A stretch of DNA of 48,069 nt from Bacteroidaceae bacterium. Its GTDB lineage: Bacteria > Bacteroidota > Bacteroidia > Bacteroidales > Bacteroidaceae. Positions 442 to 25,687 of the stretch are shown here, in pieces. The notes under the pieces were generated by a model that was not told where the DNA came from, searched no databases, and saw nothing but the letters and a program-made list of their open reading frames with translations. The first letter of the stretch is position 1, and each line of letters starts with the position of its first letter. A program made the position numbers and the translations under genes. The DNA lies in NCBI GenBank assembly GCA_017451645.1, contig JAFTNZ010000029.1, forward strand, positions 1-48,069, in the 5' to 3' direction.

Positions 442-747
442 ATGAGAAAGAACATCTTATATACGGCAATGGCGTTAGCCGTTGCCGCTGTGTGCGGGTA
501 CAATGTGTATCTGTCACAAACGGAAGAGAAACTGTCAGAGTTGGCATTAGCCAATGTGGAGGTATTGGCTGAGAATGTAGAACTTCCTGATGTCGTTGTC
601 ACATGTAGTTCTACCAATTATGGCAAATGTTGCAAACTGACACTTATCACTTCAACTATAGGTACACCTATTTGTTGGTATTGTAAACAATCCGGTGATC
701 CAAATGATTCATGTTCTATTTTTGACGAAGCCGCAGCGAATGCCTGA
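442..747 (+). CDS. NVEALA-type secreted small peptide precursor, Cys-rich (cassette A)
   Basis: The 101-residue precursor starts MRKNILY, has one hydrophobic segment (about residues 5-24) and then the NVEALA-family signature in the form LALANVEVLA at residues 34-43. The signature ends in V-L-A, compatible with signal peptidase I cleavage after Ala43. The predicted mature part is 58 residues with six cysteines, including a CC pair and a CWYC motif. NVEALA proteins are a Bacteroidales family of short precursors with no firmly known function. The gene heads a cassette of propeller, CxxC protein, transglutaminase-like lipoprotein, signal peptidase and Wzy-like protein. Export and disulfide formation are inferred. 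Confidence 0.85.
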   Translation: MRKNILYTAMALAVAAVCGYNVYLSQTEEKLSELALANVEVLAENVELPDVVVTCSSTNYGKCCKLTLITSTIGTPICWYCKQSGDPNDSCSIFDEAAANA

Positions 748-772
748 AACTCTCATTTTTTAATTATTGTAA

Positions 773-837
773 AATACGAATTACGTGATACTTTGAATTT
801 CTTCTAACCGAAATTTATCTTATCCGTAATTCGTATT
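773..837 (+). promoter_or_regulatory. Intercistronic hairpin after NVEALA gene A
   Basis: A perfect 13-bp inverted repeat (AATACGAATTACG at 773-785, complement at 825-837) extends by four more pairs across one bulged base (GATA/TATC). The loop is roughly 30 nt. It sits between the peptide stop and the propeller gene. No U-run follows, so it resembles an RNA-stabilising or processing hairpin more than a full terminator. Cassettes B and D have hairpins at the same place. Confidence 0.7.
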
Positions 838-874
838 CAAATAGTGACATAGAAAATTCATTAATGGTATTGAA

Positions 875-1990
875 ATGAAAAGACTTATTTATATCGTAGC
901 CTTTTTGGCATTCGTAGCTTGCAGTTCTAAGAATGCAGTTGAAGACTGTAAGGTAAAATTGGAAATCAATTCCGACTATTCTGTCCATGAATTGTTTTCA
1001 GAAATAGAACTTATTCCATTAGAAAGTCCCGACAGTATAGTTGTCGATTTTATAATTTCCAAAACGGTGTTTCATAACGGGTATGTTTATATATTAAATC
1101 CCCGATTGACCACCCTTTTCATATTTGATCAGGATGGGCATTATATGAACAAACTGGAAAAAGGAGATGGCCCGGATAGCTTCCTTTCACTTCTGGATTA
1201 TAACATTAACAGATTTACAGGGAATTTGGAAATTCTGACACAAAATAAGATTCTGATATATGATAATATTGGAAAAGAATTGCTTTCCGTTCAAAAAATA
1301 GCTACGCCACGTATGCCTGATTGTTTTATGAACATAGACAGAAACAATGATGTACTGTTTTGTCAATTGACAGATAAGAAAATTCTGTTTTACAACAGGA
1401 CAGATAATCTTGTCACAGATTCTTTGTACGAAATGCCACGATATATCTACAATACTTTGTTAGGATACAATGCTTCTCCATTTTATTTATACAATGACAC
1501 AGTACATTTCTTGCAGGGATATGACGGTTCACAATTTACGCTGACCATTAATGATGGGAAAAGCGCGATGTCACTTTGTTCAAAATGGGACTTTGGGATG
1601 GAGAGCTTCTCGTACAATGAGTTGGAACCCAACAAGAGTATTCCCGATTATATTAAAGATTGCAAAAGATTCTCTAAAAGTAAGCCGTTAGGATTCTTTT
1701 CATGCTTGGAAAACGACCGTTATATCATGGCGAATTTTTGGTATAAGGAAACTCCCATTACACTGATTTATGATAAGAATAATGGGAACAATGTAATTAT
1801 AGAAGAGTTTAAAGAAAAGATAGATTTCGGATTTTCTCACATAGATGAAAACTACTGTTATCTGTTGGTTCCCATAAATGATCTTTATTCTGTAGTCAAT
1901 GAAAGAGTTTTGAATCAAACCAATAGAAAAATTTTAAATAGCCTGAACGAAGAAAATAATCCAGTTATTGTGAAATATAAGTTCAAGTGA
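875..1990 (+). CDS. 6-bladed beta-propeller lipoprotein (cassette A)
   Basis: This 371-residue protein has an N-terminal lipobox (LAFVACSS, Cys16), so it is probably a lipoprotein. Repeated strands such as GYVYILNPRL, LFIFDQDGHY and KILIYDNIGKELL fit the Bacteroidetes 6-bladed beta-propeller family often found beside NVEALA peptides. The motif KGDGPDSF at the end of an early blade corresponds to GxGPxEY in the paralogs at 10634 and 15622; here it has drifted to Asp-Ser. No catalytic residues can be assigned, and a binding or scaffold role is an inference. The next gene begins within a few bases of its stop, indicating an operon. Confidence 0.8.
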   Translation: MKRLIYIVAFLAFVACSSKNAVEDCKVKLEINSDYSVHELFSEIELIPLESPDSIVVDFIISKTVFHNGYVYILNPRLTTLFIFDQDGHYMNKLEKGDGPDSFLSLLDYNINRFTGNLEILTQNKILIYDNIGKELLSVQKIATPRMPDCFMNIDRNNDVLFCQLTDKKILFYNRTDNLVTDSLYEMPRYIYNTLLGYNASPFYLYNDTVHFLQGYDGSQFTLTINDGKSAMSLCSKWDFGMESFSYNELEPNKSIPDYIKDCKRFSKSKPLGFFSCLENDRYIMANFWYKETPITLIYDKNNGNNVIIEEFKEKIDFGFSHIDENYCYLLVPINDLYSVVNERVLNQTNRKILNSLNEENNPVIVKYKFK

Positions 1991-1992
1991 TT

Positions 1993-2550
1993 ATGAAAAT
2001 TCAAAAAGTATTTTTTGTAATTGCCACATTGATAGCAATAATCCCATTATCTATAGGATGTAAAGAGAAAAAATGTAAAAACCATCCGGTTGCGAATGAT
2101 TCTATATTTGCATATACCTCTCTTGATTTAGCTTTATGGAATGGAGGCAAGTCAATCAGTTTGGACATTCTAAGTCAGTTGAAAGATAGCTGCATCCGCT
2201 TTGGGATAAACCCATCTGAACCCATACTGATTCTACGATATTCAAGATATTCGTGCGAACCTTGTGTTGAATTTGCAGTAACCGAATTTGAACATTTTGT
2301 CAACAATAAAAGCTTCAAGCAATATTTGACTATAGTTTCAGACTTTCAAAAAAGAGATTTGCCAAAGAATCGTCATCTTATAAATCTTGAAAAAAGGGAT
2401 TTGGGAATTCCAATGGACAAATGTGATATTCCATATATCTGCATCGTAAATGGAGGTGTTATTAACAGTATGATAATGCCAGATAAAAAATATCAGAAAT
2501 ATCTTGATTTCTATTTTCATAGGATTGAATCGCTCTCTTTAATCAAATAG
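1993..2550 (+). CDS. Thioredoxin-like CxxC lipoprotein (cassette A)
   Basis: The ATG at 1993 lies 2 nt after the preceding stop; an in-frame GTG at 1987 overlaps that stop and is an alternative. The 185-residue product has a lipobox (LSIGC, Cys23). Its central strand-plus-CxxC segment (ILILRYSRYSCEPC, Cys88 and Cys91) matches the position of the redox motif in thioredoxin folds, although the Trp-Cys-Gly-Pro-Cys consensus is absent. A late segment CDIPYICIVNGG resembles the cis-Pro loop (IPYI). A membrane-anchored thiol-disulfide protein is likely. Beside a six-Cys peptide, it may oxidise, isomerise or hold that peptide. A similar protein (CEAC) is encoded at 11821. Confidence 0.7.
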   Translation: MKIQKVFFVIATLIAIIPLSIGCKEKKCKNHPVANDSIFAYTSLDLALWNGGKSISLDILSQLKDSCIRFGINPSEPILILRYSRYSCEPCVEFAVTEFEHFVNNKSFKQYLTIVSDFQKRDLPKNRHLINLEKRDLGIPMDKCDIPYICIVNGGVINSMIMPDKKYQKYLDFYFHRIESLSLIK

Positions 2551-2579
2551 CAAATACCATGATTGAATATCGTCCGACA

Positions 2580-4550
2580 ATGAAACAGACATCTAAAGCT
2601 TTTGTATCTCTTTTATGCAGTGTGTTTGGCCTTTTTTCTTGCACTGACCACAGTGACATCTACCTGTCCCGCGATAGAATTTTAGAGATGAATCCGGGGC
2701 TCCAACGCGTACTCGACCATTGTCGTGGTGACGAAGAGAAAATGCGTGCAGCTGAATTTCTGATAGACAATCTGCCTTATCACAAAGGGATTTCCTACAC
2801 GAATCTCGCTTCCAACAAATTGGCCTATGAATTGTTCGGGTCGGGAGAATATACCCAATTTGAATCACGCGACTCTGCTGCAAACCGCTATGGATATTGG
2901 GGGGTAAAGAACCCTATGTTCCAAAGTGACATTTACATCAATCCTGATTTCTTAATAGACAATATTGATTGGGCATTCAAAGTGTGGAGAGAGCAACCGT
3001 GGGGGAAGAATGTTGATTTTGAGCAATTCTGTGAGTACATACTACCATATCGCTTAGGTAATGAGGAAATCTATCCTTGGCGTGAGAAAATCTATACACA
3101 ATTCCAACCTATCATCGATGCCATTCCCAATGACTCAAACATACAGCATCCGCCTTACATCGTCTCTGTGCTATTGGATTCTCTGCTGAAAGAGCCATTC
3201 TATTTCACAGGAGAAATCTCTTCTGAAATAAGAGTAGGGCCAAGCATTGTGGAGACGCGTGGAGGAAGTTGTCTGGATTTGTCGGACATGATGGCTTATA
3301 TTTGCCGGGCACTTGGTATTCCTTGCGGTATCGACTTTATGCCTATGCGCGGTGACAACAACGCACCGCATTCCATCAATTTTGTAGAAGACATTGATGG
3401 CAAATGCTACTACTTTTCCATTCTGTACAGGATGGGGCGTGTGTTCCACTGCGGACTGATACGTGATGTCTATGGAAAAATGTACCGGCAGACATTCAGT
3501 GTAAACAAAGAGATGGTCAAGCAAATGGACACACCGCTGAAAGACATACATCCATCTTTCAGATATCCGTGCATAAAAGATGTGACCTCGATTTATGCCA
3601 ATAAAAAATGTTGGAATCTGAAGCTTGCACGAAACAAGATTCTGCCAGATTATAAAGACATCGCAGACGATAAACTGCTTTATTTATGTATGTCTAACCG
3701 CTATTCATGGGAAGTTGTGGATTTCGGCAAATTCAGGAATGATACCCTCACTTTCAACGAATGCCACGGAGGTGTGACCTATTGCATCGGACAATACGAT
3801 TCCCAGTGGGGAGGCTTGACCATGATTACAAATCCGTTCTGGGTGGAAAAAGACAGCCTCCACTTGAAATTCTTCACCCCAGAAGAAGAGACTGAAGATG
3901 TGACATTGCTCAACAAATTCGGCATGGTTACAGAATTTTTTATCTGGCGGATGACCGATGGTATATTTGAGGGGAGCAACAATCCTGACTTCAAAAATGC
4001 TGATACGCTATACCAAATACCCGTTGCTCCACAAAGGTTGTGTACACGGGTACAGATAAATAATCCCAAGAAATACAAATACCTACGGTATAAAGGGAAA
4101 GAGGGGAGTTATTGCGATGTATCAGAAGTGGGATTCTACTCGGTGGACAACCTGGACCAACCATTGGCAGGTAAAATCATCGGACCTGTAGAAGGGAGCA
4201 AAGGAGACCATTCGTATTTCAACGTTTTCGACAAGAAGACTGATACTTCATACAATCATCCTACGCCTGATGGAGGATGGGCTGGAATTGCACTTGACAC
4301 ACCTGTTCAGATAGGAAAAATCATGTACACTCCACGCAATAGAGACAACTTTGTCCGTAAGGGAGATACCTATGAGTTGTTTGTTTTTAAAAGCGGTGCA
4401 TGGCTTTCACACGGGATACAAACCTCTCAATCAGACTCGCTACTTTACCATGACGTACCTAAAAATGCACTATTGCTTTTGCGCAATCATACACGGGGAG
4501 TTGCAGAACGGATATTTGAATATGAAAATGGGAAACAAGTCTATAAATAA
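2580..4550 (+). CDS. Transglutaminase-like lipoprotein with C-terminal discoidin-like domain
   Basis: The start at 2580 gives a lipoprotein signal (GLFSC, Cys21); the frame is open to 2559, but those residues would precede a normal signal peptide. The 656-residue product has a transglutaminase/protease-like core: GGSCLDLSDMMAYICRALGI with Cys231, then APHSINF with His264, and an Asp in the following EDIDGK, the usual Cys-His-Asp order. The last 170 residues (YCDVSEVGFYS, GWAGIALDTPVQIGKI, TRGVAERIFEYENG) look like the F5/8 type C-like module of Bacteroidetes surface proteins. It could cleave or crosslink peptides or bind glycan. It lies between the CxxC lipoprotein and a signal peptidase gene and is probably co-transcribed. 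Confidence 0.75.
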   Translation: MKQTSKAFVSLLCSVFGLFSCTDHSDIYLSRDRILEMNPGLQRVLDHCRGDEEKMRAAEFLIDNLPYHKGISYTNLASNKLAYELFGSGEYTQFESRDSAANRYGYWGVKNPMFQSDIYINPDFLIDNIDWAFKVWREQPWGKNVDFEQFCEYILPYRLGNEEIYPWREKIYTQFQPIIDAIPNDSNIQHPPYIVSVLLDSLLKEPFYFTGEISSEIRVGPSIVETRGGSCLDLSDMMAYICRALGIPCGIDFMPMRGDNNAPHSINFVEDIDGKCYYFSILYRMGRVFHCGLIRDVYGKMYRQTFSVNKEMVKQMDTPLKDIHPSFRYPCIKDVTSIYANKKCWNLKLARNKILPDYKDIADDKLLYLCMSNRYSWEVVDFGKFRNDTLTFNECHGGVTYCIGQYDSQWGGLTMITNPFWVEKDSLHLKFFTPEEETEDVTLLNKFGMVTEFFIWRMTDGIFEGSNNPDFKNADTLYQIPVAPQRLCTRVQINNPKKYKYLRYKGKEGSYCDVSEVGFYSVDNLDQPLAGKIIGPVEGSKGDHSYFNVFDKKTDTSYNHPTPDGGWAGIALDTPVQIGKIMYTPRNRDNFVRKGDTYELFVFKSGAWLSHGIQTSQSDSLLYHDVPKNALLLLRNHTRGVAERIFEYENGKQVYK

Positions 4551-4565
4551 GAAAGGTGGGAGAGA

Positions 4566-5462
4566 ATGAATGGCAAAAAGATGATACACCAAATGAAAAA
4601 TGTAGTTTATTGGCTGCTGATGAGTTCCTTAGGGGGCGCCTTATTGTACGGAATCGGCATCCTGTTCTGTTTTGCATCATTCTGCATACCGTCGGACTCT
4701 ATGGAACCGGCATTGATGGAAGGTGACCACATTCTGGTAGAGAAGTTCACTATGGGAGCCAGACTTTTCAATCTGAAACCTGCATTTAACAAAGAACGGT
4801 TCGCCATTTACCGGATGCCGGCATTTGGGAAGGTGAAGCGCAATGATATTTTGGTGTTCAACTATCCGTATCCGGCAAAGAAAGACAGCATTGGATTTGA
4901 TGTGATGCTCTATTATGTCAAACGGTGTATTGCTTTACCTGGAGATACTTTGGAGATACGGAATTCACATTACCATGTGCATGGCATTGTTGGCCCGTTG
5001 GGAAACATGGAAGCACAAGACTGCCTTGAGAAACTTTTTCAAAATGGAGAGTTTAAAAATCATAAAATCGTGTGGCGCTGTTATCCGAGAGACCGCAGAC
5101 TGAATTGGACCATCCGGCACATGGGACCTTACTACATACCTCAAAAGGGAGGGACAGTCAGCATGAATCATGCGAACTTCCATCTCTACCGGCCCATCAT
5201 CGAATGGGAACAGCAGCAGAAACTTCAGGAGGTGAACGACAGCACCTTTACCCTCGGCGGCCAACCGATAGCGGCCTACACCTTCCAAAAGAACTACTAC
5301 TTTGTGAGTGGTGACAAGATGGAGAATTCCAAGGATTCCCGTTATTGGGGCGTGGTGCCGGAGGAATACATCGTGGGACGCGTGTGGGGTATATGGAAAT
5401 CAATTGATGAATGGGGGGAGATGAGATGGAAAAGAATAGGGAGAGTGAAGAATGAAGAGTGA
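4566..5462 (+). CDS. Signal peptidase I (S26 family), accessory paralog
   Basis: The 298-residue protein has one N-terminal membrane segment (about 13-38), the catalytic Ser in PSDSMEPALMEGD (Ser45), the general-base Lys in YYVKRCIALPGD (Lys119) and the conserved SGDKMENSKDSRYWG box near residue 260. A long segment between the Lys box and that last box is typical of Bacteroidetes forms. It removes N-terminal leaders on the periplasmic side of the inner membrane. Its place in the NVEALA cassette suggests, without proving, that it cleaves the ALA/VLA site of these precursors. An AAGGTGGGAGAGA stretch just before the ATG is unusually Shine-Dalgarno-like. The downstream gene overlaps it by 11 bp. 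Confidence 0.88.
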   Translation: MNGKKMIHQMKNVVYWLLMSSLGGALLYGIGILFCFASFCIPSDSMEPALMEGDHILVEKFTMGARLFNLKPAFNKERFAIYRMPAFGKVKRNDILVFNYPYPAKKDSIGFDVMLYYVKRCIALPGDTLEIRNSHYHVHGIVGPLGNMEAQDCLEKLFQNGEFKNHKIVWRCYPRDRRLNWTIRHMGPYYIPQKGGTVSMNHANFHLYRPIIEWEQQQKLQEVNDSTFTLGGQPIAAYTFQKNYYFVSGDKMENSKDSRYWGVVPEEYIVGRVWGIWKSIDEWGEMRWKRIGRVKNEE

Positions 5463-7158
5463 AAAAATAAAATTTTCGTGGTTTGCCTTTACTATTGGGT
5501 TGTTCGTTAGCGGGCTTCTTCTTATTCTGCAACCGCTGTTTGCAGACGGACCGGCATTGAATGCAGATGCAGGACAAGCCGGAGGTTGGGCCATGTTATA
5601 CCGCTATGGAGGCATAGGGGTATCCATTTTGTGGATGTCTGTTCTGATGTGTCCCAAAAAGGTTGTGAGGGTGTTGCCCGATGTGGCAAGCCTGATGTTG
5701 ATGGGCTGTGTGGTATGGGAGGCCGTGGTGGCCTTGGAACAACTGTATGGAGATGGCATATCCAATCATGCACTCTATCGGTTTACGGGAACATTTCTCA
5801 ACCCGGGACCTTTCTGTGGATTCGTGGCTATGGGAGTGCCGTTGGCGGTACACTATTTAGTGAAGAGTGATAAGCTACAAGCTACGAGTGAAAAGCGCCA
5901 TCCGGATGGTAAACTTGTAGCTCGTGGCTTATCACTCGTAGCTCTGCTCACCCTCATCCTATGCCTGTTGCTGTTGCCTGCCGGAATGAGTCGTTCGGCT
6001 TGGATGGCAGCAATAACGGGAGGTGCGGCTGTCTATGGGATGCACTGGCGGAGCAAAATAAAGAACTGGAGTAGCAGACTTTTCCGGAGCAGGAAGAGGC
6101 TGATGATGGCAGGAGTTGCCTTGTTGACGCTGGTGGCCATAGGATGGGGAACTTTCCAACTGAAGGAAGATTCGGCTAACGGAAGACTGCTGATGTGGAA
6201 GATTTCCTGCCAAGCTATTGCTGAACGGCCATGGACCGGGGGCGGAAGTGAAGGCTTCCCAGCGGCATATGCCGAAGCACAAGAACGGTATTTTGCTGCA
6301 GGAAAGGGCAGCATAGAGGAAATCTATGTAGCAGGAACTCCTGAGCATGCATTCAACGAATACCTGACCATGGCAGTGAGGTATGGATGGGGTGGGTTGG
6401 CCTTTCTGCTTGCTGTGGGTATTGTGGCTGTTGTATGTGCTACACACCTGAGGGCTTATGGTATAGCGGGGGCACTGCTGACGGTGGCGGTGTTTGCTTT
6501 CTCATCGTATCCGTTGCAGTTGCCGGACTTCCTGTCAGCAGTAGTGATGTTGGTGACGGTGTCAGTCTGTTCGTACTTGAAGCACAACTCTTGTGGATTG
6601 CGCGGATTATGGATAATCTCTGTTCCTTTTTGTCTATACGTATCGCTAAAAGGTCTTCAGCAATCTGATGTCTGGCAAGCACGCCACGAGGCAGCCAAAG
6701 AGTGGAGAATGGTGCGCACGCTATATCACATGGAGGCGTATGCCACGGCCTGCGAAGACTATGCTCCGCTGTATGAAAGGATGAGATGGAACCACAACTT
6801 CTTGTTTGAATACGGGCGGGCGCTTCATCAATCGGGACAATACGAAGCCTCAAACCGCATCATGGAAGAGGCCGAACGATTGTGCGGTGACCCGATGATT
6901 CTCAATATACAAGGGAAGAACTATCAAGCATTGGGGAAGTTCAATCGTGCCGCTCTGCTATACAGACGGGCATACGACCGGCTACCCAACCGTATCTATC
7001 CACTTTATTTGGCAATGGAGATGTATGCTTCATCTGACTGTCGGCAGAAGGAGATGGCTAAAGAGTTGGCACAACGAATCATCAGCACGAAAGAAAAGAT
7101 TCCCTCGCAAGCTGTAAAAGAGATGAAAAAGAGGGCAAGAGAACTTTTAAGTGACTGA
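5452..7158 (+). CDS. O-antigen ligase/Wzy-like polytopic membrane protein with C-terminal TPRs
   Basis: The 568-residue product has about ten hydrophobic segments in residues 1-385, then a TPR-like helical tail (about 400-560, for example FEYGRALHQSGQYEASNRI and NIQGKNYQALGKFNRAALLY). NGRLLMWKISCQAI and the periplasmic-loop motif PEHAFNEYLTMAVRYGWGG match the Wzy_C/O-antigen ligase family, whose members transfer undecaprenyl-linked glycan to lipid A core or, in PglL/PilO types, to proteins. In a peptide cassette, protein O-glycosylation is possible but unproven. A short inverted repeat lies inside the gene (5867-5935) and encodes a low-complexity hydrophilic loop. The last 50 or so bases reappear at 12447. 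Confidence 0.75.
   Translation: MKSEKIKFSWFAFTIGLFVSGLLLILQPLFADGPALNADAGQAGGWAMLYRYGGIGVSILWMSVLMCPKKVVRVLPDVASLMLMGCVVWEAVVALEQLYGDGISNHALYRFTGTFLNPGPFCGFVAMGVPLAVHYLVKSDKLQATSEKRHPDGKLVARGLSLVALLTLILCLLLLPAGMSRSAWMAAITGGAAVYGMHWRSKIKNWSSRLFRSRKRLMMAGVALLTLVAIGWGTFQLKEDSANGRLLMWKISCQAIAERPWTGGGSEGFPAAYAEAQERYFAAGKGSIEEIYVAGTPEHAFNEYLTMAVRYGWGGLAFLLAVGIVAVVCATHLRAYGIAGALLTVAVFAFSSYPLQLPDFLSAVVMLVTVSVCSYLKHNSCGLRGLWIISVPFCLYVSLKGLQQSDVWQARHEAAKEWRMVRTLYHMEAYATACEDYAPLYERMRWNHNFLFEYGRALHQSGQYEASNRIMEEAERLCGDPMILNIQGKNYQALGKFNRAALLYRRAYDRLPNRIYPLYLAMEMYASSDCRQKEMAKELAQRIISTKEKIPSQAVKEMKKRARELLSD
5867..5935. repeat. Imperfect inverted repeat inside the Wzy-like gene
   Basis: GTGATAAGCTACAAGCTAC (5867-5885) pairs with 5917-5935 at 17 of 19 positions around a 31-nt centre. 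The same vocabulary (GATGAGCTACGAGCGACAAG) appears at 136-155 outside genes, so this looks like a dispersed repetitive palindrome that inserted in frame, encoding about 23 hydrophilic residues between two membrane segments. Confidence 0.65.
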
Positions 7159-7553
7159 ACCTTGTTTTATCACAGAATTTTTTCGCTCAAGGAATTACCG
7201 TTGAAAAGGGAAATTTTACTCTTACAAGAAAATGTGATAGGTAAAGGCCGGAAAAAGTTTCTGGAAAACTTGGTCATGAACCGGTGATTCCCTACTTTTG
7301 TGGATAAATCAGTCGGTTGGGCAGACTGTCGTATCTCGTGACTGAGCAAATGGAATGTTTGGCTCAACAGACAAAAAACGGGATGAAGAGATGTATCCTT
7401 TTTGACCGAAGAATTCTCTTCATTTCCTACACTCGCCCCTATCAAAAAAAGAAAGGAGGTTATAAAAACAGTAAGAAAAGTTGCAATTTAATCGGAACGG
7501 GTAAAAATACGCTGCAATGCTCCCCGGTGTCGGATGGTTCAGGGAATCGGACA
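7159..7553 (+). repeat. Leader repeat R1 (promoter plus long 5' leader) of cassette B
   Basis: This is the fullest copy of the leader repeat. Its first part runs from just after the Wzy-like stop to GGTAAAGG (7239-7246 region), then continues through the promoter, a TGAGCAAATGGAATGTTTGGCTC-type segment, TTTTTGACCGAAGAA, an A-run, AAAGGAGG (7452-7459) and CAATTTAATCGGAACGGG. It aligns with R2 at about 90% identity by eye and with R3 somewhat less. It fills the gap between cassettes A and B. No conserved protein explains it. Confidence 0.85.
7270..7300 (+). promoter_or_regulatory. Bacteroides-type promoter in leader R1
   Basis: TTGG (7270-7273), a 19-bp spacer and TACTTTTG (7293-7300) fit the Bacteroidetes -33/-7 consensus (TTTG or TTG, 19-21 bp, TAnnTTTG). 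The same arrangement recurs in R2 and R3. Transcription would begin near 7307, giving a leader of about 300 nt before the peptide ATG at 7616. Confidence 0.7.
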
Positions 7554-7615
7554 GACAAGAAGAAGTGATAGAGCAATAAGAATATAGTATATGTAAACTT
7601 ATAATAAAATAGCAA

Positions 7616-8014
7616 ATGAGAAAGACAATTTTGGGGATAATGGTTATTGCAATGTTCTCTCTAATCAATTTATATTTTATTTCATCAGACGGAACATTGG
7701 AAAAGCTTGTAATGCTAAGGAATATAGAAGTATTGGCCAATACCGAAGGGAGCAATAATGGAAAGGAACTTCGTTCTTTCTACTGTGAAAATGGAAATGA
7801 ATATTACGAATGTAGATATGCGGATTCTGATGATAATTGCGATTATTCTGAGGAAACATTCTGTGGAGCAGGTAATTCGCCTGCAGAAGGTGGAACAGAA
7901 AGTTCTGGAGAAGCTAATGATTTGTGTAAATATTCAGGTCACATTTTTTCAGAAACTCTTTGTTACAGGACCTGTATAAGATGTGGATTAACAACAAATA
8001 TCTGTAAAGATTGA
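7616..8014 (+). CDS. NVEALA-type secreted peptide precursor, nine Cys (cassette B)
   Basis: This 132-residue precursor starts MRKTIL, has one hydrophobic segment (about 5-22) and then LRNIEVLA, a divergent NVEALA signature at residues 36-41. Predicted cleavage after Ala41 leaves a 91-residue mature part with nine cysteines, a very acidic middle (YADSDDNCDYSEE) and a Gly/Ser-rich linker. It is longer than the peptides at 442 and 15390 and shares almost nothing with them after the signature, so the leader is conserved while the cargo varies. It heads the operon of MG2-type protein, propeller and CxxC protein. Confidence 0.8.
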   Translation: MRKTILGIMVIAMFSLINLYFISSDGTLEKLVMLRNIEVLANTEGSNNGKELRSFYCENGNEYYECRYADSDDNCDYSEETFCGAGNSPAEGGTESSGEANDLCKYSGHIFSETLCYRTCIRCGLTTNICKD

Positions 8015-8029
8015 TAGAAGAAAATAGAA

Positions 8030-8085
8030 GTCGTACTAAATTCTTCTCAATCGAGTTGTTTGGAATGAGGAGAATTGAGTACGAC
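8030..8085 (+). promoter_or_regulatory. Intercistronic hairpin after NVEALA gene B
   Basis: GTCGTACTAAATTCTTCTC (8030-8048) pairs with 8067-8085 at 17 of 19 positions with an 18-nt loop, followed by CTTTATTGTT. It may terminate part of the transcripts or protect the peptide mRNA 3' end. Its sequence differs from the hairpins in cassettes A and D, but the position is the same. Confidence 0.7.
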
Positions 8086-8105
8086 CTTTATTGTTCGTTA
8101 CAATT

Positions 8106-10628: not shown

Positions 10629-10633
10629 GCAAT

Positions 10634-15345: not shown

Positions 15346-15389
15346 AGAAAGTGAATGAAAAGATATTTGTAAGAGAAAATAAGAATGAA

Positions 15390-15590
15390 ATGAGAAAACA
15401 TTTTTTAGTGGCGACTTTGGCTGTTGCAATAATGACTGTATTCGGATATAGAAGTTATCTGTCACAAACAAAAAATGAAATCTCCGAATTTGCATTAGCG
15501 AATATTGAAGCTTTGGCAAGTGGGGATTTTGATATGCCTGAATGGTATGAGAAAAGAATGACAAGAAATACGGATTGCGCCTTTGTTTAG
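15390..15590 (+). CDS. NVEALA-type short peptide precursor (cassette D)
   Basis: The ATG at 15390 gives MRKHFLV; the frame is open further upstream into the leader, but only this start yields the family leader. The 66-residue precursor has a hydrophobic segment (5-20), YLSQTKNEISEFALANIEALA (signature at 38-43, the same spacing as the peptide at 442) and a predicted mature part of just 23 residues with one Cys. The short length may be natural or reflect an early stop; the stop lies in the loop of the downstream hairpin. It precedes a propeller and an RND efflux set. Confidence 0.8.
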   Translation: MRKHFLVATLAVAIMTVFGYRSYLSQTKNEISEFALANIEALASGDFDMPEWYEKRMTRNTDCAFV

Positions 15591-15610
15591 ATACAAAGCG
15601 TAATCCGTAT
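15568..15610 (+). promoter_or_regulatory. Hairpin overlapping the stop of NVEALA gene D
   Basis: ATACGGATTGCGCCTTTGT (15568-15586) pairs with ACAAAGCGTAATCCGTAT (15593-15610) apart from one bulge and one mismatch. The 6-nt loop contains the TAG stop. It is followed by AAAAAA, so it is not a plus-strand intrinsic terminator. The propeller ATG follows 12 nt later, so the fold could affect coupling or mRNA processing. Confidence 0.7.
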
Positions 15611-15621
15611 AAAAAACACCT

Positions 15622-16746: not shown

Positions 16747-16757
16747 ATAATACAACT

Positions 16758-17903: not shown

Positions 17904-20900
17904 TAAAATTTCTGCTACAACGACCCATTGCAGTGTTTATGGCATTTGCAGCCTGCGTGATTGTGGGAGTGGTGACCTACCAGACGCTCCCCATCTCTCT
18001 GTTGCCTGACATTGCCATACCTGAAATAACGGTGCAGGTGGCGGGAGAGAACACTTCGGCACGCGAACTGGAAAACACGGTGATGCGTGCGCTCAGGGCA
18101 CAACTGATGCAGGTGGAGAGGTTGGAAGACCTGCGGAGTGAGACACGTGACGGCATCGGACTCATCAGGCTGCGCTTTGAGTATGGCACCAACACGGATC
18201 TGGCCTTTATAGAGGTGAATGAAAAGACGGATGCCGCCATGAGTTTCCTGCCACGCACAACCCAACGTCCCCGAGTGATAAAAGCAAGTGCGACAGACAT
18301 ACCGGTGATGTATCTGAATCTGACGGAAAAGGACAGCCCCCATCCCGATTATCCCCAAGAGGAAGAGGAGGCAACCTCTTTCCTCGCCCTCTCTGATTTT
18401 GCCGAAAATGTGGTGCGCCGACGCATCGAACAACTGCAGGAGGTGGCGATGGTGGACGTGTCGGGACTGCTTCACCGGCAGGTGCAGATTGTACCGGACT
18501 TGAACAAAATGGAGGTGCTGGGCATCGGAATTGCGGACATAGAGAGTGCCTTGAACAGCAATAATGTGGAACCGGGGAGCATGACTGTGCGCGACGGGTA
18601 TTATGAATACAACATCCGTTTCTCTACAGTGGTGCGCACAGTGGAGGATGTAAAACGCATACCACTGCGACATGAAGGACGCATCTTCCGGTTGGAAGAG
18701 TTGGCAGAGGTGCAACTGACACCCACGGAAGAGTCGGGTATGGTGACCTACAACGGAAAGCGTGCCGTGAGCCTGGCCATCATCAAACAGGCTGATGAAA
18801 ACATGGACCGCATGAAGACGGCACTGACAAACACCGTACGTTCGCTGGAGAGGAACAATCCACATGTATGCTTCGATGTCACACGTAACCAGACGGAACT
18901 GTTGGACTATACGCTGACGAACTTGCAACAAAACCTGACCTTGGGATTCCTGCTCATCCTGGTGGTGACATCGCTCTTCATGGGAGGAGTGCGGTCGCCA
19001 TTGGTTATCGGGGTCTGTATGGTGGTGTCGCTGGTCATCAGCTTCATCTTCTTCTATCTTTTCGACAAATCGCTGAACATCATTTCGCTGTCGGGACTGA
19101 TTCTGGCACAAGGCATGATGATAGACAATGCCATCATTGTGACGGAAAACATCACCCAATACAGGGACAAGGGGTGTGCCGTAGATGAGGCTTGCCGACT
19201 GGGTACGGAAGAGGTGATAACCCCCATGCTGAGTTCGTCGTTGACAACCGTTGCCGTGTTTGTGCCGTTGGTCTTCATCAGTGGTATAGCCGGTGCCATC
19301 TTCATGGATGAGGCTTTTGCCGTCACAGTGGGACTGGCGGCTTCGTACATCACGGGTATCACACTGCTACCGGTACTTTATCTGCAGACCGGTAAGCTGC
19401 AACTGGGAAAGTTGACAAAGAGAAGCGAAGCCGAGTCCTCGTCAACCCGACACTCTGTTCTTTTATCTGCATGCTACAACCAAGGTATTGCCTGGGTATT
19501 CCGCCACAAAAGACCGGTACTTGGACTGACCTCTCTTTCTATCCCACTCTGCGTGATGATGTTTTATCTGCTTCCTAAAGAACGGATGCCGGAAACGAGC
19601 CGCACGGAACTGGCGGTGCGCATCGACTGGAACGAGAATATACACTTGGATGAAAACCGGTGGAGGATGGAGGAACTGGAGCAGGTGTGCCAACCCTATA
19701 TTGCAGAAAGCAATGCCCACATAGGAAATCAGCAATATCTGTTGGAAAGGGGGCAGACATCGGTTGCAGAGACAGACCTCTATCTGCGCACAAACACTAC
19801 GGAGCAACTTGACGAACTGCAAACTGTCATCTGGAAATGGGTGACCGGACACTACCCACCGGCCACTGTGAGATTTTATGCTCCGGAGAATGTGTTTGAG
19901 AAGGTGTTTGACACCAATGAACCGGAACTGGTGGTGGAACTCTACAATAAGGACAAAGCCTGTCTGCAAGAGACTGACCGGCTGCAGGCCCTGCAGCAGA
20001 CTGTCGATGGGATGGTGAACGAAGCATCAGCAGGACTGGCCGTGCAAGAGCAGATAGGATTGACCATTGACCGTGAAAAGCTGTTGCTCTACGGTGTGGG
20101 ATACGATGTCGTCATGCGCTCTCTGAAGACTGCTCTACGGGAGAACAAGGTGGCTACGCTACGCTCGTTCCAGAACTATCTGCCCATCAGCATCAATGGG
20201 AGGGAGCAGACGTTGGACGAGATACTGGCGCATACGTTGGTGGAAGTGCCCTCGCTGCTACGTGGTGAAAAGCAAAAGGTGCCGCTGAAAAGTTTCATTA
20301 CGACCTTTCCCGCTCAGGACCTGAAGACCATCGCTGCCGGTATAGCTGGGGAATACGTACCTCTGACATATACAGAGACAGGCCAGGCTGATGCCATTGT
20401 AGAGAAGGTAAAGGAACTGTTGGGTGAGAATCCCTCTTGGGACGCAGGGTTTTCAGGGGCATTCTTCTCCAACCACCGGATGATGGGTGAACTGATGGTC
20501 GTACTCGTCGTCTCGCTGCTGCTCATGTATTTTATACTGACTGCACAGTTTGAGAGTTTCCTGCAACCGCTGATTGTCTTGGCAGAGATTCCCATTGACC
20601 TTGGATTTGCCCTGATTGTAATGGCTGTCTGTGGAGTAAGCCTGAACCTGATGAGTGCCATCGGTATCGTGGTAAGTTGCGGTATCATTATCAACGACTC
20701 GATTCTGAAACTGGACATGATCAATGTGTTGCGTCAAGAAGGAATGCCCCTGATGGAAGCCATACATACGGCAGGAGCCCGCAGACTAAGGTCCATCATC
20801 ATGACCTCATTGACCACCATACTGGCAATGGTGCCATTGCTGTTCACCAACGATTTCGGTTCGGAACTACAAAAGCCTCTCTCTATAGCCATGATTGCAA

Positions 20901-21007
20901 CCATGAGTGTGGGAACATTGGTCAGCCTGTTTGTGATACCGCTGGTCTATTGGCTGATGTATAGGCGTATTCCCCTCAGGCCATCCGCAAAGCGGGGGCA
21001 GGAATGA
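17900..21007 (+). CDS. RND efflux permease, first subunit
   Basis: The 1035-residue product has the AcrB-like layout: TM1 at the N terminus (KFLLQRPIAVFMAFAACVIV), porter domain, TM2-6 (about 335-490), a second porter domain and TM8-12 at the end. The TM4 proton-relay segment reads GMMIDNAIIVTENI, with one Asp and an Asn where AcrB has Asp-Asp. The TM10 segment GIIINDSILKLDM lacks the AcrB-type Lys in the usual place. Such variants are common among non-AcrB RND permeases. The next gene starts on its stop (ATGA at 21004). A second permease in the same operon (22508) suggests a hetero-oligomeric pump like MdtBC. Confidence 0.88.
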   Translation: MIKFLLQRPIAVFMAFAACVIVGVVTYQTLPISLLPDIAIPEITVQVAGENTSARELENTVMRALRAQLMQVERLEDLRSETRDGIGLIRLRFEYGTNTDLAFIEVNEKTDAAMSFLPRTTQRPRVIKASATDIPVMYLNLTEKDSPHPDYPQEEEEATSFLALSDFAENVVRRRIEQLQEVAMVDVSGLLHRQVQIVPDLNKMEVLGIGIADIESALNSNNVEPGSMTVRDGYYEYNIRFSTVVRTVEDVKRIPLRHEGRIFRLEELAEVQLTPTEESGMVTYNGKRAVSLAIIKQADENMDRMKTALTNTVRSLERNNPHVCFDVTRNQTELLDYTLTNLQQNLTLGFLLILVVTSLFMGGVRSPLVIGVCMVVSLVISFIFFYLFDKSLNIISLSGLILAQGMMIDNAIIVTENITQYRDKGCAVDEACRLGTEEVITPMLSSSLTTVAVFVPLVFISGIAGAIFMDEAFAVTVGLAASYITGITLLPVLYLQTGKLQLGKLTKRSEAESSSTRHSVLLSACYNQGIAWVFRHKRPVLGLTSLSIPLCVMMFYLLPKERMPETSRTELAVRIDWNENIHLDENRWRMEELEQVCQPYIAESNAHIGNQQYLLERGQTSVAETDLYLRTNTTEQLDELQTVIWKWVTGHYPPATVRFYAPENVFEKVFDTNEPELVVELYNKDKACLQETDRLQALQQTVDGMVNEASAGLAVQEQIGLTIDREKLLLYGVGYDVVMRSLKTALRENKVATLRSFQNYLPISINGREQTLDEILAHTLVEVPSLLRGEKQKVPLKSFITTFPAQDLKTIAAGIAGEYVPLTYTETGQADAIVEKVKELLGENPSWDAGFSGAFFSNHRMMGELMVVLVVSLLLMYFILTAQFESFLQPLIVLAEIPIDLGFALIVMAVCGVSLNLMSAIGIVVSCGIIINDSILKLDMINVLRQEGMPLMEAIHTAGARRLRSIIMTSLTTILAMVPLLFTNDFGSELQKPLSIAMIATMSVGTLVSLFVIPLVYWLMYRRIPLRPSAKRGQE

Positions 21008-22500
21008 AGGACACACCTTCTGAGTATAATAATATAATAAGGTATATGAGACACATAAACATTACATGGTTGTGCATGGTGGTCTTGTCGTGGACTCCGG
21101 TGCATGCCCAAGAACTGCGTCTGACGTTGGACGATGCGATAGCCACTGCAGCGGAAAGTTCGCTGTCTGCCATCAAAGCGGAGAGTTCGTATCTTTCCGG
21201 ATATTGGGAATACCGGGCTTTCAAAGCTGAACGGCTGCCCAGTCTGACCCTGAACCTGACACCGGCACAATACAATCGGCGCATCGTGCAACGCTATGAT
21301 TCGGATGCTGACCGCGATGTCTATCGTAGCCAACAGGCATATTATGCCTCCGGAGGACTGTCCATCAGACAGAATGTGGACTGGACAGGAGGAACCCTCT
21401 ACGTGGATGCCAATCTGGATTATCTGCGCTATTTTGGAGCAGACACCTACACCCAATTCTCTTCTGTCCCTTTCCGTATCGGATATTCACAAAGTCTGGT
21501 GGGATACAATGCCTTCAAATGGGACAAACTGATTGAACCCTTGAAATTTGAAAGAAAGCAGAAAGAACTGACCTACAATATGGAACAGGTGTCGGAAGAG
21601 GCTATCAGATATTTCTTCTCGCTGGCACAGGCACAGGCCGAATACGACCTGGCTGTCAAAAATCTGGCATCGTGTGACACGCTTTGCACCATCGGAAGGG
21701 AAAGACATAAGATTGCCGCCATCTCTGAAGCAGACCTGCTGACGCTGGAACTTGATGTGGTGAATGCACGCAACACGCTGCGCAACAGCGAAATCACACT
21801 GAAGAGAGCTATGTTCCAGCTGGCATCATTCTTGAACATTGATAAAGGAAGAGACATACACATTGCTCTGCCTGAACGACCTGCATTTGAGGTTGTTGCT
21901 GCAGATGAGGCTTTGGAACAAGCCCGGAAAAACAATCCGCAATTCCTCAGCATCAGGCAAAACATTTTAGAAAGCAGGCGTACGGTGGACCGCACAAGAA
22001 AAGAGAGCTACTTCAACGTGAGTGTGAATGCCAGTGTGGGATTCAACCAAGTGGCAGACCGATTCAATGATGTGTGGCACAACCTGCTCCAACAAGATAT
22101 GGTGGCAGTGAGTGTCTCCATCCCATTAGTCGATTGGGGGGTGAGAAAGGGAAAATACAATATGGCCAGAAATAATCTGGATGTGGTGGAGACTTCTGCC
22201 AGACAGACAGAACAGAGTATCGAAGAAGAGGTCATCATGACGGTAAATGACTTCAATGTGCAAGGAGGTATCATCGAAAGTGCAGAGGAAGCACGCGGAT
22301 TGGCTGAATCGGCTTACGAAGAGACGCGTGCAAGATTCATCATCGGACAATCAGACATCAACAGCCTGTCGTTGGCTCTGAACCGCAAAGATGCTGCAGA
22401 GAAAAACTACATCGCTGCCTTGAAGAATTATTGGCTGAGTTATTACAAAATCCGCAGGCTGACGTTGTTTGACTTCGACAAACAACAGGCAATCAAATGA
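21004..22500 (+). CDS. TolC-like outer-membrane efflux channel
   Basis: The start at 21004 overlaps the previous stop; an internal ATG at 21046 gives a neater signal peptide (MRHINITWLCMVVLSW...VHAQ) and may be the real start. The product of 484-498 residues has two OEP repeats. Amphipathic helices include EEAIRYFFSLAQAQAEYDLA and the tail helix NRKDAAEKNYIAALKNYWLSY, and beta strands lie near residues 110-170 (TLYVDANLDYLRYFG). It would form the outer-membrane exit duct for the two permeases. Confidence 0.87.
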   Translation: MKDTPSEYNNIIRYMRHINITWLCMVVLSWTPVHAQELRLTLDDAIATAAESSLSAIKAESSYLSGYWEYRAFKAERLPSLTLNLTPAQYNRRIVQRYDSDADRDVYRSQQAYYASGGLSIRQNVDWTGGTLYVDANLDYLRYFGADTYTQFSSVPFRIGYSQSLVGYNAFKWDKLIEPLKFERKQKELTYNMEQVSEEAIRYFFSLAQAQAEYDLAVKNLASCDTLCTIGRERHKIAAISEADLLTLELDVVNARNTLRNSEITLKRAMFQLASFLNIDKGRDIHIALPERPAFEVVAADEALEQARKNNPQFLSIRQNILESRRTVDRTRKESYFNVSVNASVGFNQVADRFNDVWHNLLQQDMVAVSVSIPLVDWGVRKGKYNMARNNLDVVETSARQTEQSIEEEVIMTVNDFNVQGGIIESAEEARGLAESAYEETRARFIIGQSDINSLSLALNRKDAAEKNYIAALKNYWLSYYKIRRLTLFDFDKQQAIK

Positions 22501-22507
22501 GCAAGAC

Positions 22508-25500
22508 ATGAAGAAGACTGTCCGGACATCGTCGTTCGCACTGATAGTGGGATTCCTGTGTGTGGCACTGATAGGAGCTGCGCTGCTGCCACTGCTGCCT
22601 GTGAGGCTATACCCATCGCGTGTCACTCCTTCATTGACAATCAGTTTCAGTCTGCCAAACAGTTCTGCACGGGTGGTAGAGATGGAGGTGACGTCGAAAT
22701 TGGAGGCTATGCTGGCCCGTATGAAAGGGGTGAGAAGCATCAGCAGCCGCTCACGTAACGGAGGTGGAAGCATCTCTGTGAATCTGGACAAACACACCAA
22801 TATCGAGGCTGTACGTTTTGAGGCATCCGCCATAGTGAGACAAGCCTGGCCGGAACTGCCCGAAGGGACTTCATATCCACAAGTGAGGGTGAACAGTCCC
22901 GGGGACAATGCATCGCGCCCTTTCCTGACTTATACATTGAACGCCACAGATAACCCCGCCTTGATACAGCAATATGCAGAAGAGTTCATCCGACCGGTCC
23001 TGGCACGTATCAGAGGAGTCCGTCAGGTGGAGGTGAACGGTGCCAGCCCCATGGAATGGCAATTGGAGTATGACCCACACCAACTGGAAGCACTCGGACT
23101 GGCTCCCGGTGACATCCAGCGTGCCATCAGCGACTGCCTCCAGACTGAATATGTGGGGAATATAAAAATCCAATCAGGGTGTACCCAAAAGTCTGATGGG
23201 ACTTTCTTCGATGAGGATGTCGTCGTCAAAAACCGTAGTGGGCGGATCATTCACCTGAGTGAACTGGTGAAGATAAAGCATACCGAAGCGCCACCGCAAA
23301 GCTATTACCGGATCAACGGCCTGAACTCCATTTACCTGTCTGTCGCAGCTGAAGAAACGGCCAACCAACTGATTCTCGGTAAGGAGGTAAAAGAGGCCAT
23401 GGAGACATTGGAAAAGACTCTGCCTGCCGGATACGAGGTACACATCAGCTACGATGCTACAGAACATATAGGCGAAGAACTGGACAAAATCTACTACAGA
23501 AGCGGACTGACGGTACTGATATTGCTATGCTTTGTCTTGTTGCTTACCCGACGATGGAGATATATGCTGATGGTGACAATGAGCCTGACGGTAAACCTGC
23601 TGATGGCTGTAGTCGCCTACTATTTTTTAGGGATAGAGATACAACTTTACACATTAGCGGGGATTACCATATCGCTTAATCTGATGATTGACAACACCAT
23701 TGTGATGGCTGACCACCTGCTGCACCGGCATAATCTGAAGGCTTACCTCTCCATCCTGACTGCCACCCTGACCACCATCTGTGCATTGGGAGTGGTACTG
23801 CTTCTGGATGACAGACTGCGAGCCAGTCTGGAGGACTTTGCTGCAGTGGTCATCATCAATCTGGCAATCTCCTTGCTGACTGCACTCTTTTTTGTCCCTT
23901 CGCTGATGGACAAATTGGGGATGGCACGGCAATCCGGGAATAAAAGCCTCCGAGCCGACAGATGGAACAGACTCACTGTCCACTTTACACACGGGTACGG
24001 AAAAGTGATCTATTGGGCTTGTCGCTATCGGGCAGCGGTTTGCATACTGTTGGTACTTGCCTTCGGCCTGCCTGTATTTCTGCTTCCCGAAAAGATGGAG
24101 GATGATGAGGAATGGCACGGTTGGTACAACCGGACATTGGGGAGCGACTGTTACAAGGAAAAAATACGTCCCATCGTGAATACGGTTTTGGGAGGGACAT
24201 GGAGGCTCTTTGTAGAAAAGGTATATAACGGCAGCTATTTCAACGATGAACATGAAACCGTGCTACACGTCAATGCCACTCTGCCCAACGGAAGTACAAT
24301 AGGACAGATGAACGCATTGGTGTTACAAATGGAAGGATTTTTGCAGAATTATCTGCGGAATCGCTCCATTTCCCAATTCCAGACACGTATATCAAGCCCT
24401 TATCAAGCTTCGATAGACATCTTTTTCACAAAGGAACACCAACACAGCAGTCTGCCCTACCAACTGAAAGCTGAAATCACCTCGAGAGCCCTGGAATTGG
24501 GTGGCGGAAGCTGGAGTATCTACGGACTGGAAGACCAGGGATTCAATAACAGTGTGCGGGAGTCAGCCGGTTCTTACAGGGTGCGGTTGACCGGATATAA
24601 CTACGATGAGCTGTATGGATATGCCGAAGCACTCCGTGACAGTCTGCTGACCCACCGGAGGGTGAGGGAAGTGCTCATCAGCTCAAACTTCAAATGGTAT
24701 AAGGATGATTACCGGGAATTGCACTTCAAACTACGGAATGGAAGGCTGGCAGAAGCCAATCTGACTCCCATGGAGCTGTATGCTGCGATGCGAAATGTTT
24801 TTGCCCGCGATTTGTCATGTGGTACGGTGCGTTCGGCTACCGGAGGCTATGAACACATACGCTTGTCTTCGTCCAAAGCACGTGATTATGACAATTGGCA
24901 ACTGCAGCAGCAGACTTTGCTTTCTGGAGAGAAAGAGTTCAAACTTTATCCGTTGGCCGACATTGGCATTTACCAACAGGCTTCCGAAGTGGTAAAGAAT
25001 AATCAGGAATATGTCCTGTGCCTGCAATACGAATATATAGGAGCTTACCAGATGGGGGAAAAAATGCTGGACCAGACGCTGGAGAAATTCAACAAGGCAC
25101 TGCCTGCGGGATATAAAGCCAGCTCTGAAATGGGAGGACACCGTTGGACATCAAAAGACAACAGCCAATATTGGCTCCTGCTGCTGGTGGCATTGGTCAT
25201 CTTTGTTGTCACCGGCATTCTGTTCAACTCTTTCCACCGTCCCTTCGCAATCTTGTTTGTCATCCCTATTTCTTATATTGGTGTATTCCTCACTTTCTGG
25301 CTTTTTGAATTGAACTTCGACCAAGGAGGATTTGCCGCTTTCATCCTGTTGTGCGGTATCACAGTGAATGCCGGCATCTATCTGCTCGATGAGTATGCAA
25401 ACATGCGTAAAGCCCGACCGAACCTCCTTCCTGCTCGTGCCTACCTGAAGGCCTGGAATGTGAAAATTGTGCCTATTCTGCTGACTGTGTGTTCCACTAT

Positions 25501-25687
25501 CCTCGGATTTATACCTTTCATGATAGGAACGGAGAAGGAGGCGTTCTGGTTTCCTCTGGCTGCGGGAACTGTAGGAGGACTAATCATGTCTTTGACAGGC
25601 ATTTTCTTGTTTTTGCCTGTATTCTGCCTGTCGAAGCGCGGATTTGCAAAATCAAATCAAAAGGACAGTCGTCCTTCATCGTTGTAG
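22508..25687 (+). CDS. RND efflux permease, second subunit
   Basis: ATG at 22508 (7 nt after the channel stop) starts MKKTVRTSSFALIVGFLCVA; the upstream 13 in-frame codons overlap the previous gene and are unlikely to be used. The 1059-residue product has the RND arrangement of two porter domains and twelve TM helices. TM4 reads LNLMIDNTIVMADHLL with one Asp, and the C-terminal half has CGITVNAGIYLLDEYANM. It is divergent from its neighbour at 17900. Its 3' end overlaps radC on the other strand by 31 bp, leaving no space for an ordinary terminator. Confidence 0.85.
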   Translation: MKKTVRTSSFALIVGFLCVALIGAALLPLLPVRLYPSRVTPSLTISFSLPNSSARVVEMEVTSKLEAMLARMKGVRSISSRSRNGGGSISVNLDKHTNIEAVRFEASAIVRQAWPELPEGTSYPQVRVNSPGDNASRPFLTYTLNATDNPALIQQYAEEFIRPVLARIRGVRQVEVNGASPMEWQLEYDPHQLEALGLAPGDIQRAISDCLQTEYVGNIKIQSGCTQKSDGTFFDEDVVVKNRSGRIIHLSELVKIKHTEAPPQSYYRINGLNSIYLSVAAEETANQLILGKEVKEAMETLEKTLPAGYEVHISYDATEHIGEELDKIYYRSGLTVLILLCFVLLLTRRWRYMLMVTMSLTVNLLMAVVAYYFLGIEIQLYTLAGITISLNLMIDNTIVMADHLLHRHNLKAYLSILTATLTTICALGVVLLLDDRLRASLEDFAAVVIINLAISLLTALFFVPSLMDKLGMARQSGNKSLRADRWNRLTVHFTHGYGKVIYWACRYRAAVCILLVLAFGLPVFLLPEKMEDDEEWHGWYNRTLGSDCYKEKIRPIVNTVLGGTWRLFVEKVYNGSYFNDEHETVLHVNATLPNGSTIGQMNALVLQMEGFLQNYLRNRSISQFQTRISSPYQASIDIFFTKEHQHSSLPYQLKAEITSRALELGGGSWSIYGLEDQGFNNSVRESAGSYRVRLTGYNYDELYGYAEALRDSLLTHRRVREVLISSNFKWYKDDYRELHFKLRNGRLAEANLTPMELYAAMRNVFARDLSCGTVRSATGGYEHIRLSSSKARDYDNWQLQQQTLLSGEKEFKLYPLADIGIYQQASEVVKNNQEYVLCLQYEYIGAYQMGEKMLDQTLEKFNKALPAGYKASSEMGGHRWTSKDNSQYWLLLLVALVIFVVTGILFNSFHRPFAILFVIPISYIGVFLTFWLFELNFDQGGFAAFILLCGITVNAGIYLLDEYANMRKARPNLLPARAYLKAWNVKIVPILLTVCSTILGFIPFMIGTEKEAFWFPLAAGTVGGLIMSLTGIFLFLPVFCLSKRGFAKSNQKDSRPSSL

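Follow-up and report, generated by a model that had tools for sequence, protein, structure and literature searches.

In the blp- and plantaricin-type regulons, a signal peptide is encoded beside its sensor, further peptides each have a partner gene, and the peptides share a leader. Here we describe an array of short-peptide cassettes of the NVEALA family (PF14055) at positions 442-25687 of contig JAFTNZ010000029.1 (assembly GCA_017451645.1) from a Bacteroidaceae bacterium. The window, as we call the stretch that was analyzed, is this one entire contig of 48,069 nucleotides; it belongs to a 2.5-Mb assembly that is 72.6% complete, and its genes are our own open reading frame (ORF) calls. With its relatives taken into account, the array resembles these regulons in having one candidate signal peptide on the sensor side, other peptides with partner genes and a shared leader. 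It differs from them in occurring in a Gram-negative, in its propeller partner, in its often one-component membrane regulator and in the lack of both a double-glycine leader and a C39 exporter. Indeed, concerning the hallmarks of class II double-glycine bacteriocins, the leader consensus ends in NVEALAxxE with no GG, and the 18 window proteins scanned gave no C39 match.

Other described systems share further features with the array. As described in PMC3482391, polymorphic toxin-immunity systems combine a constant delivery part, a variable C-terminal part and a co-varying linked partner, and they include unpaired partner genes. A constant N-terminal part, a variable C-terminal part and a co-varying linked partner were likewise found here, with the difference that a short peptide rich in Cys (median of 41 residues) and only presumably toxic takes the place of the variable part. 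At the ubb locus of Bacteroides fragilis, as presented in PMC5705921, a secreted antibacterial protein adjoins propeller genes that differ even within one genetic type, and a 52-bp repeat lies 61-67 bp upstream of a propeller gene. Our array also has propellers beside a putatively secreted peptide and a repeat upstream, but the ubb toxin is ubiquitin-like and not NVEALA, and the ubb propellers can be likened to ours by description only. Partner genes without an effector also form the rAID orphan immunity arrays of Bacteroidales, which, according to PMC12247911, involve type VI secretion system effectors and SUKH-domain immunity proteins, unlike the propeller arrays here. The main text of a Bacteroidales survey of ribosomally synthesized and posttranslationally modified peptides (RiPPs) (PMC10352776) contained none of the terms NVEALA, propeller and transglutaminase. 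The NVEALA family entry offers a name only; the propeller pairing, a loop-bearing subclass and its sensor link are features found here. We found no description of them in the open-licence papers searched, although an account elsewhere is possible, and we regard the loop-peptide subclass, with its neighboring membrane-bound transcription factor or histidine kinase/response regulator, as new.

A sequence-only reading of the window had proposed four successive units, A to D, that share a leader and a propeller and differ in their enzyme modules. Such an array was borne out, with peptides, four six-bladed propeller lipoproteins, two CxxC proteins and differing enzyme modules, all on the forward strand. 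Unit A (442-7158) encodes an NVEALA peptide, a propeller, a CxxC protein, a transglutaminase-like protein, an S26 signal peptidase and a Wzy_C-TPR protein. Unit B (7240-12441) encodes an NVEALA-like peptide, an MG2-type protein, a propeller and a CxxC protein. Unit C (12893-14636) consists of leader DNA and a propeller, without a peptide, and unit D (15063-25687) encodes an NVEALA peptide, a propeller, an HlyD adaptor, an RND permease, an outer membrane factor and a second RND permease. Lacking a peptide, C is a different kind of unit. Peptides A (442-747; 6 Cys in the core; E 3.5e-9, 36.7 bits) and D (15390-15590; short, 1 Cys in the core; E 6.7e-10, 39 bits) exceed the 27-bit Pfam cut-off of PF14055. 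Peptide B (7616-8014; 9 Cys in the core) misses it (E 0.03, 14.5 bits), so that, of the three peptide genes claimed earlier, this one owes its kinship to the motif NIEVLA and to a match with our loop-type alignment A3 (E 9.8e-4). The four propellers pass the Pfam cut-off of the DUF5128/TolB-like propeller families, A (875-1990; E 4.5e-30), B (10634-11824; E 3.8e-36) and D (15622-16746; E 1.3e-14) matching PF17170 and C (13560-14636; E 6.8e-68) matching PF15869. Propeller B groups with a relative's propeller (L102:3461-4684) with a support of 0.997. A GxGPxE-like motif had been noted in the propellers of all four units; in an alignment of 16 propellers, its G is invariant and its P almost invariant.

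The pairing of peptide and propeller extends to other genomes. Within the genus, 8 of 15 genomes had PF14055 matches; broader samples gave 29 of 392 genomes for the order and 9 of 396 for the class. The same 8 genus genomes contained the DUF5128 propeller family, and one relative had 20 NVEALA matches, 15 of them within 32 kb. Our discovery set comprised 60 regions from 29 genomes besides that of the window, hand-picked from the matches, with six matching genomes (G061, G112, G216, G315, G390 and G396) left out. The held-out set comprised 40 regions from 23 other genomes, out of 27 new genomes with matches (G466, G486, G500 and G549 were left out), and was chosen by matches to alignment A3, which favors loop peptides and is blind to sensors. 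The gene directly after the peptide was a propeller in 87 of 112 discovery cases and 71 of 92 held-out cases. Neighbor genes thus recur in other genomes, so that the first of the two conditions under which the sequence-only reading would have been refuted does not apply. By a plain recount, 94 of 250 propellers did not directly follow a peptide gene, and 5 more lay at region edges; an earlier, stricter pairing rule gave 108 of 250 as unpaired. Unpaired propellers form runs of 4 to 7, and of 9 in one region (L192:2863-18000), where three sensor-profile proteins accompany ten propellers, nine of them consecutive, with no NVEALA gene called.

We compared 142 peptide-propeller pairs from 49 genomes with a null model in which propellers were shuffled among the cassettes of each genome (2,000 trials). 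Between genomes, the similarity of the cores correlated with that of the propellers (r = 0.50; null, 0.05 with a standard deviation of 0.03), a value reached in 0 of 2,000 trials. Near-identical cassettes are common to G159/G566, G458/G475 and G458/G583; when these three close genome pairs were dropped, r was 0.38 (null, 0.054; 0 of 2,000). No association was seen between leader and propeller (r = 0.089; null, 0.079; 357 of 2,000) or between leader and core. In 61 of 71 cases, with 18.5 expected, the nearest core in another genome brought that genome's best-matching propeller, in a test restricted to a normalized score of at least 0.25 and to target genomes with two or more cassettes. The similarity of leaders was 0.57 within genomes versus 0.27 between them, that of cores was 0.12 in both, and the DNA upstream was repeated within the genome for 110 of 181 peptide genes versus 36 of 591 control genes. 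Together, the likeness of leaders within a genome and the correlation of core with propeller argue that leaders tend to stay with their genome while core and propeller are exchanged as a unit. The earlier proposal that the system diversifies by swapping peptide and accessory module therefore stands for the shared leader and the exchangeable parts, but the unit swapped is core plus propeller. These results also bear on the possibility of a neutral array, in which duplicated genes would be carried by recombining DNA and peptide, propeller and modules would have no joint function. In line with this possibility, stops or an incomplete reading frame were seen in five of the NVEALA matches listed, and many propellers are solitary, but the presence of both families in the same genomes, the core-propeller pairing between genomes and the intact S26 dyads make it very improbable.

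The leader peptide has the consensus LSxLxLxNVEALAxxE, in which the NVEALA motif ends in A-L-A, a typical signal peptidase site. Of 140 distinct cores, 110 have E as their third residue. Their median length is 41 residues, and cysteine makes up 7.9% of them; among those without the loop motif described below, the number of cysteines is even in 84 and odd in 32. A cassette is built from genome-specific leader DNA and a leader peptide that continues into a short, highly variable core rich in Cys; next comes a six-bladed NHL-type propeller lipoprotein particular to that core. Cassettes are gained and lost as core-propeller units, probably through recombination within the leader DNA that they share.

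Within the discovery set, one subclass of peptides carries a short loop with two cysteines, C-x3-G-x2/3-C, and adjoins a regulator that is mostly divergently transcribed. This regulator is either a membrane protein that has a ToxR-like layout and carries an OmpR-type DNA-binding domain (PF00486) at its C terminus, or a histidine kinase paired with a response regulator. PF00486 was over the cut-off in 4 of 6 sensors in one scan and 6 of 8 in another, plus L140, in scans that left out L143; the L090 sensor has no Pfam match but matches the sensor profile. The loop-sensor comparison dropped peptides without a readable core (7 of 112 discovery and 5 of 92 held-out). The discovery table held 16 peptides with loop and sensor, 9 with the loop only, 2 with a sensor and no loop (L084 and L105) and 78 with neither; since the loop motif was derived from this set, the table is not a test. 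In 3 of the 9 loop-only cases (L087, L090 and L096), the sensor was one gene away or under the clustering threshold. Among the 87 readable cores of the held-out set, 10 had loop and sensor, 5 the loop only, none a sensor without the loop and 72 neither (p = 7.5e-10), and all 10 sensor-adjacent peptides, with the sensor directly upstream, carried C-x3-G-x3-C.

Both sensor types occur in more than one family. The transcription-factor type was found in families f1 and f95, and the kinase type in f96, with C-x3-G-x2-C and within one genus, and in f38, with C-x3-G-x3-C. Counted by loop length, C-x7-C lay beside a transcription factor in 7 cases of the discovery set and 10 of the held-out set, and C-x6-C beside a kinase/regulator in 8 cases from one genus. 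We gave up the idea that loop length follows sensor class, because in genome G387 (f38; L193:839-4324) a C-x7-C peptide adjoins a histidine kinase with an OmpR-type regulator. This loop peptide and its propeller belong to the transcription-factor lineage, as if the sensor had been exchanged. Region L140 contains two sensors back to back with two loop-type peptides. We also noted a many-Cys NVEALA peptide divergent from a response regulator and a kinase that is LytS-like by eye (L131:11049-12979), possibly a third sensor type. In L121:1-6612, three related proteins (the one scanned is TPR-SpoIIE) precede an NVEALA peptide pair with CFGTRSWC-like short loops. A predicted sensor structure was too poor to use (predicted local distance difference test score of 47.7).

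Sensing-unit propellers formed a clade of 16 (support of 0.96), which was chosen as the best-scoring clade and leaves out 9 of the 25 labeled sensing-unit propellers, 8 of the kinase/regulator type plus L098. The labels of L090, L096, L129 and window propeller C were assigned after the propeller comparison had been seen, and the others were taken from the gene neighborhood. Two of eight sensor-adjacent unpaired propellers (L084 and L111) match no loop-type propeller. Window propeller C falls within the sensing clade, joined with a support of 1.0 to propellers from two congeneric genomes; compared with the propeller of the G387 loop peptide, it shows 38% identity across 303 residues. Unit C, whose orphan propeller is of the sensing-unit type with neither loop peptide nor sensor in the window, is therefore most plausibly what is left of a sensing unit, or an outlying part of one.

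The constant leader, the variable core, the co-inherited partner, the lone partners and the sensor-side peptide, together with the B. fragilis precedent, lead us to rank first a reading in which the arrays encode polymorphic secreted peptide effectors with cognate propellers, acting as immunity proteins or receptors, under the control of a loop-peptide signal. We give this reading a probability of about 0.5. A sensing unit, present in the arrays of several relatives, consists of a loop peptide, a propeller from a separate clade and, as sensor, either a transcription factor bound to the membrane or a kinase with its response regulator; the loop peptide would most likely be the signal that induces the array. 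The other peptides would most likely be antibacterial effectors, and each propeller an immunity protein or surface receptor. More specifically, and more tentatively, such a system may be a Gram-negative peptide-pheromone circuit, in which an exported loop peptide would be read in the periplasm by an exchangeable sensor, aided by the peptide's own NHL-propeller lipoprotein, and would switch on the array of effectors with their cognate propellers. A peptide that could serve as the signal of such a circuit was found linked to a sensor in the membrane in the relatives only.

The link of the loop peptide and its propeller to a sensor would also be expected from pure signaling, with every peptide a ligand, every propeller a receptor or co-receptor and no toxins, the arrays serving to diversify self or kin recognition; unpaired propellers would then be eavesdropping receptors. 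However, 77 of the 87 held-out peptides with readable cores have no adjacent sensor, and few sensors could hardly read many different cores, so we consider pure signaling unlikely.

Several observations weigh against the effector reading. Linked genes are co-inherited anyway, and the co-inheritance of core and propeller is therefore no proof of binding. Few lineages contribute to the sensor linkage, and the ten held-out cases are not ten independent events. No loop peptide was found near unit C among ORFs of at least 25 amino acids, and the window also contains no sensor; ORFs with the loop pattern elsewhere in the window had no NVEALA motif by eye, and the organism's own genome, 72.6% complete, matched the sensor profile only in DNA-binding domains. 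The authors of PMC5705921 suggest that the B. fragilis toxin needs no immunity protein. Finally, the modules are not universal: among the 53 genomes whose NVEALA loci were retrieved, 51 have propellers in those loci, 42 have F1 proteins (DUF1573/CxxC), 34 have Wzy_C, 33 have S26 and 30 have transglutaminase-like proteins; these last three are combined in 26 genomes, and RND occurs with HlyD and outer membrane factor in 13. The original interpretation of a system for secretion, maturation and response thus keeps its peptides, shared leader and exchangeable parts, while its response part is represented by the sensors beside loop peptides in relatives and by neither component in the window.

The two CxxC thioredoxin-like proteins that had been predicted are present, A at 1993-2550 (alignment A5) and B (family F11) at 11821-12441, the latter 39% identical to L102:9809-10441; both Cys are invariant across 8 aligned proteins, and the profile matches a thioredoxin structure (4fyu; E 5e-4). 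The thioredoxin likeness of the F1 proteins is weak. Both the CxxC and the F1 proteins would fit Cys-rich products. In the module of unit A, the extra S26 signal peptidase (F3; 4566-5462; PF10502, E 9.9e-30) and the O-antigen-ligase-like Wzy_C protein with TPR (F4; 5452-7158; PF04932, E 1.7e-16) are present as anticipated, and the transglutaminase-like protein (F2; 2559-4550), which has a C-terminal carbohydrate-binding-like region, matches PF01841 weakly and under the cut-off (E 0.0011). Its profile (A2) reaches 2yb7 with E 1.7e-25, and Cys238 and His271 are invariant in 15 aligned proteins. The S26 protein has Ser45 and Lys119, and both residues are retained in 24 of 24 members of its family. 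The MG2-type assignment in unit B (F12; 8106-10628) derives from homologue and profile matches: the window protein itself gave no MG2 match in the Pfam scan, nor did its closest homologue (48% identical), but two of three homologues did (1.8e-12 and 2.7e-8; 26-27% identical), and the family profile reaches the corresponding region of complement C3 (E 8e-4). In unit D, the predicted two-permease RND pump is confirmed as a tripartite exporter, with an HlyD-type adaptor (F6; 16758-17903; PF13437, E 1.8e-9), permease 1 (F5; 17900-21007; PF00873, E 3.9e-162), an outer membrane efflux protein (OEP; F7; 21004-22500; PF02321, E 2e-37) and permease 2 (F5; 22469-25687; PF00873, E 5.8e-95). The shared machinery, namely the CxxC and DUF1573 proteins, S26, the transglutaminase-like protein and Wzy_C, would probably act on the common leader or on disulfides, and the RND pump may move the product across the outer membrane.

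We rejected the transglutaminase-like protein as specific to NVEALA loci, as 13 of 15 genus genomes and 206 of 392 order genomes match it (E 0.001, many of them partly). It also occurs with Wzy_C in regions without NVEALA, such as L175, L177 and L172. In L175:9579-19858, the two genes flank a radical-SAM peptide cluster whose maturase is split in two ORFs and which includes an 86-amino-acid Cys-containing ORF without a family match, a daptide-type HExxH protease and an FtsX/MacB-type permease. The pair adjoins a pilin-like protein (N_methyl) and a secretin in L177:9691-17873. The window's own genome has, on contig 12 (L172:1346-8570), a second, shorter transglutaminase-like gene with Wzy_C and neither NVEALA nor propeller. 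These contexts suggest that transglutaminase-like/Wzy_C is a helper module for exported peptides and not NVEALA specific. Regarding RiPPs, the leader-core architecture is present, but no established RiPP-modifying enzyme was found among the 18 window proteins scanned. In Bacteroides thetaiotaomicron, BT0662 (O-antigen ligase) and BT0664 (propeller) are tabulated in PMC10434189 as lowered in iron-poor medium, with P values of 0.132 and 0.353, and are therefore only a lead.

The presence of the transglutaminase-like/Wzy_C pair by a pilin-like gene and by a radical-SAM peptide cluster would also suit a role of the propeller as a maturation or display partner, either chaperone or enzyme, for structural or adhesive surface peptides that are perhaps glycosylated by the Wzy_C protein, and the structural matches of the propeller include the peptide-amidating lyase PAL. 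A general enzyme, however, would have no need to change along with every core, and runs of propellers have no substrate gene alongside; we judge this role improbable.

The leader DNA of the array would provide the ground on which effector cassettes recombine. It was said to be present in all four units, which holds in full for B (7240-7546, found as a direct repeat and by genome search), C (12893-13198; 93% identity) and D (15063-15319; 88% identity), where the repeat measures about 260-300 bp, and for its 3' half only in A (221-352; 80% identity to the B leader; alignment A9). These four copies are the sole matches in the window's own genome assembly at its 72.6% completeness, and a 31-base piece of the leader had 3 matches at up to 3 mismatches versus 0 in 100 shuffles. 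Promoter-like sites (TTGG-N19-TACTTTTG) lie at 7270-7300 in B, 12923-12953 in C and 15084-15114 in D, and they resemble the Bacteroides promoter pattern. The full Bacteroides-type pattern was found upstream of 16 of 195 peptide genes versus 29 of 595 other genes, which is no clear difference. Rfam gave no RNA family match in the window at gathering scores, and the consensus fold of the four copies showed little covariation because three of them are nearly identical; therefore, we claim no RNA element. The end of the Wzy_C gene with the DNA behind it (7094-7246) recurs after unit B (12440-12591) as direct repeats D5 (88%) and D3 (98%). This flanking repeat is the type of scar expected if cassette B came by recombination or duplication. 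Transposase-like genes were seen by eye within or next to NVEALA arrays in L139:8393-9571 and L152:1680-2645, and a search for a plasmid origin gave no near match.

The contig opens within the 3' end of a DUF1573-type gene (F1; 1-138, forward strand; BLASTP to L140:7221-8099, 46% over 39 amino acids, E 2e-12); the array is therefore cut upstream and probably starts before contig position 1. Downstream, positions 25657-48069 contain RadC, a second set of adaptor, RND and outer membrane factor, a Clp-type ATPase, an HhH-GPD DNA repair protein, SusD-, SusE- and SusF-like genes, a type III glutamine synthetase and a phosphoglycerate kinase.

With these arrays, NVEALA, a family of no known function, gains a testable role, with a candidate signal peptide, a sensor that may read it and a putative matching of propeller to peptide. 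If the effector reading is true, these gut bacteria would possess their own peptide system for communication and attack, and with it many natural small disulfide peptides with matched binding proteins.

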